NCBI RefSeq assembly: GCF_014196625.1
Contig: NZ_JACIDZ010000024.1
Span: 1-50,722 of the forward strand
Direction of reading: 5' to 3'
Length of the DNA stretch: 50,722 nt
DNA from: Martelella radicis
GTDB lineage: Bacteria; Pseudomonadota; Alphaproteobacteria; Rhizobiales; Rhizobiaceae
Within the stretch, counting starts at the first letter, position 1. Each line of letters starts with the position of its first letter. The position numbers and the translations under genes were made by a program. Positions 30,584-34,676 of the stretch are shown in pieces. The notes beneath the pieces were generated by a model, which searched no databases, was not told where the DNA came from, and worked only from the letters and a program-made list of their open reading frames with translations.

Positions 30584-30713
30584 GAACCCCGGACCCGGTG
30601 AAACTCCGGGTGGCTCTTCCGGCCGCCGATCCGCCGGACAACCATTGAAACTGTTTTTTACCTCCCGGCCAGCCTTTGCCTGCCGGCCGCAAACAGATTT
30701 TCAGGGACCATTG

Positions 30714-33180: not shown

Positions 33181-33390
33181 TTAGGCAGCGCTGAGGTTTT
33201 CAGCGGCGCTCTTGCCCGTGCGGCGATCAGCAACAACTTCAAAGTTGACCTTCTGGCCTTCGGCCAGGGTGGTCATGCCGGAGCGCTCAACAGCGGAGAT
33301 GTGGACGAAAACGTCCTTGCCGCCGTCTTCCGGTTCGATGAAGCCATAGCCCTTGGTGGTGTTGAAGAATTTTACAGTGCCGACGCTCAT
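33181..33390 (-). CDS. cspA: Cold-shock domain protein
   Basis: A 69-residue CspA-type RNA chaperone consisting of one OB-fold. RNP1 is KGYGFI (13-18) and RNP2 is VFVHIS (27-32). The ATG follows AAAGGAAA. It has a leader of up to about 250 bases before the next upstream element, typical of cold-shock mRNAs whose 5' UTR controls translation; a 98-codon open frame in that leader has no protein-like features. It ends just before the shared bidirectional terminator. Confidence 0.95.
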
Positions 33391-33639: not shown

Positions 33640-33671
33640 CGCCCTCTGTCCGGGAGGAAGGACAGAGGGCG
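33640..33671 (-). ncRNA. Cuckoo-like stem-loop with CCTCCC loop
   Basis: A perfect 12-base-pair stem (33640-33651 with 33660-33671) presents an 8-base loop that reads TTCCTCCC on the minus strand, an anti-Shine-Dalgarno-like motif. It is about 110 bases downstream of the first DUF1127 gene on the same strand and is followed by TTTCTCGTT. Loop type and position match the three stem-loops behind the second DUF1127 gene, so it is read as part of the same RNA family, possibly also ending the transcript. Confidence 0.6.
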
Positions 33672-33782: not shown

Positions 33783-33926
33783 TTACTTCGCAGCCTTGCG
33801 GGCAACCCGGCGGATGTCTTCGCGATTGATGCCGAGATCGGCCAGTTCGCGGTTGTTCATGCGGTTCAGTTCGCTGACCGTCTGACGATACTTCATCCAG
33901 TTGTTGAAGCTATGTGCCATGCTCAT
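33783..33926 (-). CDS. Small DUF1127 protein, copy 1
   Basis: A 47-residue basic protein almost entirely made of the DUF1127 domain: FNNWMKYRQTVSELNRM then RELADLGINREDIRRVAR. Proteins of this type in rhizobia and Rhodobacter affect RNA turnover and phosphate or stress metabolism. The start is the ATG at 33926 with GGGAG upstream; MAHS two codons later is an alternative. A close paralogue lies at 34296-34439 on the same strand. It has its own promoter-like module at 33998-34053 and is followed by hairpins, one with an anti-SD loop. Confidence 0.9.
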   Translation of the reverse strand: MSMAHSFNNWMKYRQTVSELNRMNNRELADLGINREDIRRVARKAAK

Positions 33927-33997
33927 ATCATATCTCCCTTCGCTTGAAGGTCTCGGCGCCGCATCCGTGCGACGCATCTCTGTTCCTGACAATGCGA

Positions 33998-34053
33998 GAT
34001 ATAGAGGCTTGCGCGGGGTTGAGGCAGAGGGTTTGCGTCAACAGTCCTATGCA
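33998..34053 (-). promoter_or_regulatory. Conserved promoter module of DUF1127 copy 1
   Basis: On the minus strand TGCATAGG (34053-34046), 17 bases, TCTGCCTCAA (34028-34019), 15 bases, TATATC (34003-33998). The same three blocks with identical spacing stand before copy 2. TATATC is a reasonable -10; TGCATAGG, with a second TGCATAG at 34062-34056, lies where an activator such as a LysR-type protein would bind. Confidence 0.6.
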
Positions 34054-34141
34054 TTCTATGCAAAGCTTGGAGAACCTGCCTCAATTTTGACCAGAAAACA
34101 GGCAGTGCAGCCCGGGAGCACTTATCGACTGGCGACAGCGC

Positions 34142-34188
34142 AAAAAAATAGCGCTCACCGGGGGAGGAGGATCCGGTGAGCGCCATTT
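34142..34188 (-). ncRNA. Cuckoo-type stem-loop 3 and terminator
   Basis: A perfect 11-base-pair stem (34151-34161 with 34173-34183), lengthened by four A-U pairs, displays a loop reading ATCCTCCTCCC on the minus strand. It is followed by TATTTTTTTG, so it doubles as the Rho-independent terminator of the DUF1127 copy 2 transcript. Confidence 0.8.
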
Positions 34189-34193
34189 GATGT

Positions 34194-34229
34194 GGCCGGT
34201 GATTGGGAGGAGGAGGAGTATCACCGACC
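34194..34229 (-). ncRNA. Cuckoo-type stem-loop 2
   Basis: A ten-pair stem (34194-34203 with 34220-34229) with a 16-base loop reading ACTCCTCCTCCTCCCA on the minus strand. The only imperfect pair is C-A on the plus strand but G-U on the minus strand, direct evidence that the minus strand is the folded RNA. Confidence 0.8.
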
Positions 34230-34232
34230 TAT

Positions 34233-34270
34233 CGAAGGGCATTTTGGGAGGAGGAGGAGAATGCCCTTCG
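34233..34270 (-). ncRNA. Cuckoo-type stem-loop 1
   Basis: A perfect 11-base-pair stem (34233-34243 with 34260-34270) with a 16-base loop reading CTCCTCCTCCTCCCAA on the minus strand. It starts 25 bases after the stop of DUF1127 copy 2. Stem sequences of the three hairpins are unrelated while the loops are nearly identical, the pattern expected if the exposed anti-Shine-Dalgarno loop is what is selected. Confidence 0.8.
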
Positions 34271-34295
34271 AATTCCTGTAATTCTTGTGCTTCGC

Positions 34296-34439
34296 TTAGA
34301 ATGCGGCCCGGCGAGCGATCCGGCGGATATCTTCGCGGTTGATGCCGAGGTCGGACAGTTCGCGGGTCGACATGCGATCCAGCTCGCTGACGGTGCGACG
34401 GTATTTCATCCAGTTGTTGAAGCTGCGCGTGACGTTCAT
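34296..34439 (-). CDS. Small DUF1127 protein, copy 2
   Basis: A 47-residue paralogue of the protein at 33783, sharing FNNWMKYR-TVSEL-RM and REL-DLGINREDIRR. The start is the ATG at 34439 (MNVTRS); the open frame continues upstream through the promoter module and is not coding there. In Rhodobacter a DUF1127 gene (ccaF1) precedes and is cotranscribed with CcsR RNAs bearing CCUCC loops; the same layout appears here with three stem-loops directly after the stop. Confidence 0.92.
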   Translation of the reverse strand: MNVTRSFNNWMKYRRTVSELDRMSTRELSDLGINREDIRRIARRAAF

Positions 34440-34500: not shown

Positions 34501-34556
34501 GATATAATCGTTTCATTCCGATTGAGGCAGACCCTTTTCAGCAATGCCCCTATGCA
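34501..34556 (-). promoter_or_regulatory. Conserved promoter module of DUF1127 copy 2
   Basis: On the minus strand TGCATAGG (34556-34549), 17 bases, TCTGCCTCAA (34531-34522), 15 bases, TATATC (34506-34501), exactly the blocks and spacings seen before copy 1. The start codon is 61 bases from the -10-like element. Confidence 0.6.
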
Positions 34557-34676
34557 AAAAACGCAAGGCTCGGAGAAGGCGCGCCAGGAACCCCGCAAGC
34601 GGCCGCGCCCAAAGGCGCGAACAACTTGCAGCAAAGGGAAAAGCAGGGCCGCCGGGCGTCCCCGCCGCTCTTGCAG

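Follow-up and report, generated by a model that had tools for sequence, protein, structure and literature searches.

The locus and its RNA element

The window, by which we mean the whole 50,722-nt stretch of Martelella radicis DNA analysed here, carries on its minus strand a gene for a 47-residue arginine-rich protein (DUF1127a), an RNA element of three hairpins, a second small-protein gene (DUF1127b) and a fourth hairpin, with similar sequence boxes upstream of the two genes (Table 1). That a 47-residue DUF1127 gene stands ahead of the hairpins had been proposed in the preliminary description, and the Pfam match bears this out. The same description gave the extent as 34142-34270; the three hairpins are indeed there, but the locus does not end at 34142, since a second DUF1127 gene and a fourth, CCUCCC-bearing hairpin follow. 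Elsewhere in the window a sul1 RNA (RF03058, 77.8 bits; 30588-30643, plus strand) lies ahead of a gene for a SulP-type sulfate permease (Pfam Sulfate_transp and STAS), which is followed by a universal stress protein gene.

Table 1. Features of the locus, in order along the minus strand; positions are those of the window.
Feature	Positions	Strand	Details and evidence
LsrB/VtlR-like box (TGCR-N6-GCAT) upstream of DUF1127a	34552-34565	minus	TGCGTTTTTTGCAT; conserved in 11/11 loci
-10 element TTATAT of DUF1127a/αr14 (probable, inferred)	34502-34507	minus	conserved, not invariant
DUF1127a, 47-aa arginine-rich small protein gene	34296-34439	minus	Pfam PF06568, 57.4 bits
αr14 (NfeR1/cuckoo family) RNA, three anti-Shine-Dalgarno (anti-SD) hairpins	34146-34276	minus	Rfam, fold, covariation
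Hairpin 1	34232-34271	minus	12 bp; loop 34244-34259, CUCCUCCUCCUCCCAA; fold, covariation
Hairpin 2	34194-34229	minus	10 bp; loop 34204-34219, ACUCCUCCUCCUCCCA; fold, covariation
Hairpin 3	34146-34188	minus	16 bp; loop 34162-34172, AUCCUCCUCCC; fold, T run
LsrB/VtlR-like box upstream of DUF1127b	34049-34062	minus	TGCATAGAATGCAT; exact TGCA-N6-GCAT
-10 element CTATAT of DUF1127b	33999-34004	minus	invariant in 11/11 loci
DUF1127b, small protein gene, 48 aa (first ATG) or 46 aa (second)	33783-33929	minus	Pfam PF06568, 57.1 bits (46-aa form)
Fourth anti-SD hairpin, possible terminator	33640-33671	minus	12 bp; loop UUCCUCCC; terminator scan, locus comparison

The preliminary description had read the hairpins as cuckoo-type RNAs and had suggested a covariance search as a check. 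Such a search matches the 131-nt element to the Rfam αr14 family (RF02344) over the whole model (model positions 1-123; 93.8 bits, E 5.9e-16), above the gathering cut-off of 58.8, and the cuckoo reading is supported both by this full-length match and by the combination of a DUF1127 gene with a CcsR-like RNA, which is the CIN1 type of locus. The likeness to ccaF1 and CcsR that had been drawn at the same time holds for the CIN1-type order of the locus but not for the RNA family itself; membership in CcsR1 (RF02791) is rejected, the score of 29.3 bits falling below the gathering cut-off of 65.3.

Folding of the minus strand gives a minimum free energy of -61.3 kcal/mol (z -7.52, equalled by none of 200 shuffles) with all three loops unpaired, and together with the Rfam E-value this argues that the three-hairpin element is not a chance structure. 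Three minus-strand hairpins with unrelated stems and a common type of loop are thus confirmed. The loops had also been called almost the same: all contain CCUCCUCCC, but the third lacks one CCU unit that the other two have. The element begins 19 nt 3′ of the DUF1127a stop codon, with 24 nt between that codon and the first stem. Hairpin 3 and the T run behind it are probably an intrinsic terminator; a terminator scan with a loop limit of 8 did not list it. Published accounts of the αr14 family give it three hairpins whose stems vary and whose loops carry the anti-SD sequence CCUCCUCCC (PMC10746234, PMC7143759), and three hairpins with unpaired CCUCCUCCC loops are what we find in the window fold and in the alignment of 11 loci described below. 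Membership and structure are therefore established, and the locus is another copy of the known rhizobial αr14/NfeR1 "cuckoo" RNA family.

Conservation and covariation

Matches to αr14 occur in 73 of the 101 genomes searched, including the window's own genome, which has four, three of them above the Rfam cut-off. The order DUF1127a-αr14-DUF1127b is found in 11 of 13 genomes of the genus; among the matches listed it is absent from the other two (G005 and G008), and G008 carries DUF1127-αr14 twice in tandem. Relatives of DUF1127a, 45-47 residues long, occupy the equivalent place in 11 of the 13 genomes, and an alignment of proteins of this type comprises 21 loci (13 from Martelella, two from Marinicella sp. 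W31 and six from Rhizobium or other Hyphomicrobiales), the closest being that of M. lutilitoris GH2-6, identical at 47/47 residues.

The 11 loci, brought together for their common order DUF1127-αr14-DUF1127 and not by a tree, contain nine distinct sequences. In their alignment 96.5% of stem cells are paired, and two-sided changes are seen in 11 of the 38 stem pairs (shuffled mean 3.3; 0/500 as high), which establishes covariation. Pairing falls to 36-52% when the partner is slid by 1 to 3 columns, a comparison in which the tested structure is favoured because it was taken from the window itself, and further pair types in the stems do not exceed those of shuffles (312 of 500). The changes are unevenly spread: hairpin 1 has two-sided change in 5/12 pairs with 89.8% of cells paired, four of its pairs being broken in 2 to 4 of the nine sequences and a fifth in one; hairpin 2 has two-sided change in 4/10 pairs with 98.9% of cells paired and a single pair broken once; and hairpin 3 has two-sided change in 2/16 pairs with every cell (100%) paired. 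The G-U pair previously noticed in the middle hairpin is real, its third stem pair being U-G in six and U-A in three of the nine sequences.

The loop cores are nearly invariant across the 11 loci, with the third loop of one locus (G003) shortened to AUAUCCUCCC. Loops that vary on conserved stems had been named in the preliminary description as the pattern that would speak against its reading; the 11 loci contradict that pattern, their stems varying with compensation and with pairing kept, and their loops scarcely. Fixed loops on free stems are, as judged from the alignment, the pattern described for αr14. In a wider set of 151 copies (150 among the matches listed and the one weak own-genome copy) a hairpin finder counted three hairpins for 142 copies and two for nine. 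The pairing of each stem with its own arm in the 142 copies (0.94, 0.98 and 1.00, against 0.47, 0.46 and 0.72 with swapped arms) is high by construction because stems were chosen for best pairing, and loop conservation over the 151 copies is partly circular because the copies were found with a model that scores loops.

Linkage to DUF1127 genes

Linkage of αr14 to DUF1127 genes is established. Our genus set consists of 41 of the 50 Martelella matches counted, and among the matches listed 40 of these 41 copies have a same-strand DUF1127 gene within 1.5 kb; the one copy without such a neighbour is the own-genome copy below the Rfam cut-off. Of the 92 DUF1127 matches, one of which scores below the Pfam cut-off, 61 have an αr14 nearby. 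The genes and RNAs recur in three orders: DUF1127-αr14-DUF1127, DUF1127-αr14, and αr14 with one or more DUF1127 genes after it. In the genus αr14 is usually followed by a second DUF1127 gene, which has an anti-SD motif at its 3′ end. At the level of the family, at least one αr14 stands beside a DUF1127 gene in 39 of the 42 copy-bearing genomes examined. For 107 of the 151 copies the flanks contain a DUF1127 gene on the same strand, and for one copy a DUF1127 gene on the opposite strand; 44 copies have no same-strand gene within 1 kb, counts that depend on a profile built from the same-strand hits of these loci and in which tandem copies share flanks.

The association can also be approached from the protein side. 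Forty-six DUF1127 genes from 40 stretches were hand-picked among the matches listed, away from known αr14 copies, and 19 of them (16/40 stretches) have at least two anti-SD hairpins in the 300 nt after the stop codon, some of the genes standing in tandem and sharing hairpins; control hairpins with a GGAGG loop occur in two of the 46 downstream regions. Rfam reports αr14 in 10 of the 16 hairpin-bearing stretches. The Rfam model seems to miss some related RNAs, since in the other six (L203, L205, L209, L210, L213 and L214) a DUF1127 gene precedes two or three anti-SD hairpins that fall below the αr14 cut-off.

Two further arrangements were seen. Three stretches (L083, L119 and L147) have three tandem αr14 copies behind one DUF1127 gene, which recalls the four CcsR copies of Rhodobacter, and in another (L227, positions 68-180 and 582-703) an αr15 RNA, which we take to belong to the AbcR family, lies a few hundred bases upstream of a DUF1127-αr14 pair.

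Promoters and the LsrB/VtlR-like box

An LsrB box, TGCA-N6-GCAT, is reported in the promoter of NfeR1, which LsrB activates (PMC10746234). In Brucella, VtlR has the motif CAATGCAGCCATGCA and activates three DUF1127 genes (PMC12595884), and in Agrobacterium it activates the small-protein gene atu1667 (PMC7486931). The sequence TGCR-N6-GCAT, which resembles both the LsrB box and the Brucella motif, precedes both DUF1127a and DUF1127b in 11/11 loci; its exact published form is present upstream of DUF1127b in 8/11, and of the two window boxes that of DUF1127b is exact and that of DUF1127a is one base off (TGCG). Read instead as TGCA-N5-GCAT, the DUF1127a box would fit 4/11 loci, against 11/11 for TGCR-N6-GCAT. 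Invariant in the 11 loci are GCATAGG ahead of DUF1127a and GCAT, CTGCC and CTATAT ahead of DUF1127b, and conservation of the promoters is thereby established.

In the genus, among the matches listed, the box lies upstream of 27/27 αr14 copies that immediately follow a DUF1127 gene and of 13/14 others (40/41 in total), and outside the genus upstream of 14/35 DUF1127-linked and 22/75 other copies, against 1/61 and 4/86 in control stretches for all copies, with the reservation that the R was admitted after the genus sequences had been viewed. The published TGCA-N6-GCAT gives 18/62 linked and 15/89 other copies (controls 1/61 and 2/86), and the looser TGCA-N5,6-GCA gives 45/62 and 31/89 (controls 2/61 and 9/86). 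Across the whole window there are eight TGCR-N6-GCAT sites against 6.8 expected, and because the pattern is this common only its place and conservation count.

Scanning the minus strand here for the consensus gave no promoter of the sigma-70 type, which says little, since the E. coli consensus was used and the conserved CTATAT was missed too. Heat induction is unsupported at this locus because the promoters show an LsrB/VtlR-like box and no recognisable RpoH promoter of the CcsR type.

A fourth anti-Shine-Dalgarno hairpin

The fourth hairpin begins 111 nt past the DUF1127b stop codon. CCUCCC is found behind DUF1127b in all 11 loci, within a hairpin loop in nine and, in G003 and G012, just 5′ of a terminator-like stem, so that the motif is kept though its position shifts. 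The stem itself varies across the nine loci, for example from U-A to U·G to C-G. At least five T residues directly follow the stem in five of the nine (G002, G004, G009, G010 and G011), and the other four, the window (TTTCTCG) among them, have a short or interrupted T run. Because the T run is often weak, and because a scan of the region gives three terminator-like sites against 1.7 in shuffles, the hairpin is best called a possible terminator. Its αr14-like score in Rfam is weak (21.6 bits, E 0.14). Outside the genus exactly one anti-SD hairpin was found behind one of the 46 DUF1127 genes, 256 nt away and probably there by chance, and the single-hairpin variant thus looks confined to the genus in this sample. 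Further along the minus strand, this hairpin is followed by a gene for a cold-shock domain protein (33181-33390; Pfam CSD, 86.2 bits).

Proposed mechanism and alternatives

We think it likely that this is a CIN1-type locus in which a joint DUF1127a-αr14 transcript represses translation through pairing of its CCUCCUCCC loops with Shine-Dalgarno sites. A promoter with an LsrB/VtlR-like box, presumably under LsrB control, would drive one transcript containing the 47-residue DUF1127a reading frame and a 3′ αr14 that ends at hairpin 3; cleavage within the 24-nt linker would probably free the RNA, which might otherwise act as part of the message. Base-pairing of its three exposed loops with strong Shine-Dalgarno sites would repress several mRNAs in trans, as NfeR1 does, and DUF1127b would form a second unit with a like type of promoter, ending in a single anti-SD hairpin. 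Shine-Dalgarno blocking and release by RNase E at the window locus are argued by analogy with NfeR1 and CcsR: NfeR1 silences ntrB and two transporter mRNAs by anti-SD pairing in trans, using three redundant motifs (PMC10746234), and CcsR is made from the ccaF1 mRNA with RNase E (PMC8625941, PMC10253847). Of the six αr14 copies of S. meliloti just one was reliably detected by northern blot under the conditions tested (PMC7143759), and the window copy may therefore be silent.

Candidate targets were sought in the window's own genome with the strong Shine-Dalgarno pattern GGGAGGAGG-N2-9-ATG. Of the eight sites one is the antisense of the αr14 locus, two precede genes for 4-hydroxybenzoate 3-monooxygenase and 3-oxoacid CoA-transferase subunit A (NCBIfam), two more precede what by eye read as a LuxR-type response regulator and a VasI-like protein, and three are without a convincing gene. 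The sites are not enriched, and the candidates are a lead only, since a reverse-complement control gives seven.

It is possible to regard the hairpins as a mere 3′ stabiliser or terminator of the DUF1127 mRNA with no function in trans, and their closeness to the stop codon (19 nt), the resemblance of hairpin 3 to a terminator and the scan by E. coli consensus, with no sigma-70-type promoter on this strand, would all fit. We nonetheless consider this improbable: a stabiliser needs its stems and not the CCUCCUCCC loop, yet it is the stems that vary and the loop cores that hardly do. Each of the 13 genus genomes also has one further αr14 whose DUF1127 neighbour is solely downstream, and the box is upstream of 13 of the 14 genus copies that do not immediately follow a DUF1127 gene. 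A preceding DUF1127 gene is thus not required for αr14 to be made; NfeR1, moreover, acts in trans (PMC10746234). Far less credible is a reading of the opposite strand, in which GGAGGA loops would serve as a sponge for a CsrA/RsmA-type protein. The plus-strand loops do read GGGAGGAGG, and that strand folds somewhat better than shuffles (z -2.4), but the minus strand reaches z -7.5, G-U cells outnumber A-C cells by 334 to 183 when stems are scored alike for both strands, and both the T run and the DUF1127 gene belong to the minus strand, in the window and in the 10 other loci alike. The strand is thus established, and a sponge of the CsrA type, which requires the plus strand, is rejected on the fold, the G-U pairs and the T run.

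A different suggestion would supplement the preferred reading of a repressing DUF1127a-αr14 transcript, not replace it. The DUF1127 protein and αr14 might form a protein-RNA unit, the protein binding the co-encoded anti-SD hairpins and controlling their maturation or delivery. The very tight linkage of the two is in keeping with this, and so is CcaF1, an RNA-binding protein that promotes RNase E-mediated maturation of CcsR (PMC10253847). Against it, a report on DUF1127 proteins of Agrobacterium and Salmonella describes them as acting on sensor kinases or on other proteins, with no RNA binding found for YjiS, and also states that CcaF1 can replace Agrobacterium DUF1127 proteins (PMC12501420); the 44 αr14 copies lacking a nearby same-strand DUF1127 gene likewise weigh against it. 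We hold such a unit to be a tentative possibility. Slightly more speculative is the view that the anti-SD motif is itself a selected output of DUF1127 mRNAs, with three loops behind DUF1127a and one behind DUF1127b, that would couple an LsrB/VtlR-controlled and perhaps RNA-binding protein to its own Shine-Dalgarno-blocking RNA.

Relation to known systems

The closest counterpart is αr14/NfeR1 of Sinorhizobium meliloti, with which the window copy shares a full-length match, three hairpins, CCUCCUCCC loops, variable stems and an LsrB-like box. It differs in lying just behind a DUF1127 gene, whose promoter it probably shares, whereas NfeR1 as published is driven by a promoter of its own that has LsrB and NtrC sites, and in the extra CCU unit of loops 1 and 2. 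The ccaF1-CcsR1-4 locus of Rhodobacter sphaeroides is a CIN1 locus, defined as a short DUF1127 gene associated with a CcsR-like RNA (PMC10253847), and this combination is present in the window. In both loci RNAs with the CCUCCUCCC motif come after a DUF1127 gene; in Rhodobacter there are four RNAs behind an RpoHI/RpoHII promoter (PMC10253847), whereas the window has one αr14 that scores below the CcsR1 cut-off and an LsrB/VtlR-like box. The VtlR-activated DUF1127 genes of Brucella and atu1667 of Agrobacterium are likewise small DUF1127 genes behind a LysR-type box of the GCAT/TGCA kind, but the window genes carry a 3′ anti-SD RNA or hairpin, which the accessible portions of those reports do not mention.

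The RNA family, the anti-SD mechanism, the association with DUF1127 (CIN1), and the control of NfeR1 by LsrB and of DUF1127 genes by VtlR are already published. In the open-licence literature CCUCCUCCC was not found together with DUF1127, and the accessible parts of that literature contain neither the Martelella loci, nor a box common to the DUF1127 and αr14 units of one locus, nor a single anti-SD hairpin behind a DUF1127 gene. The single hairpin behind DUF1127b is a simpler variant. Because nearly all listed αr14 copies of the genus adjoin a DUF1127 gene and their promoters share a conserved box, two questions become directly testable in Martelella: whether DUF1127 proteins act on the adjacent RNAs or on other proteins, and what role the many αr14 copies play.
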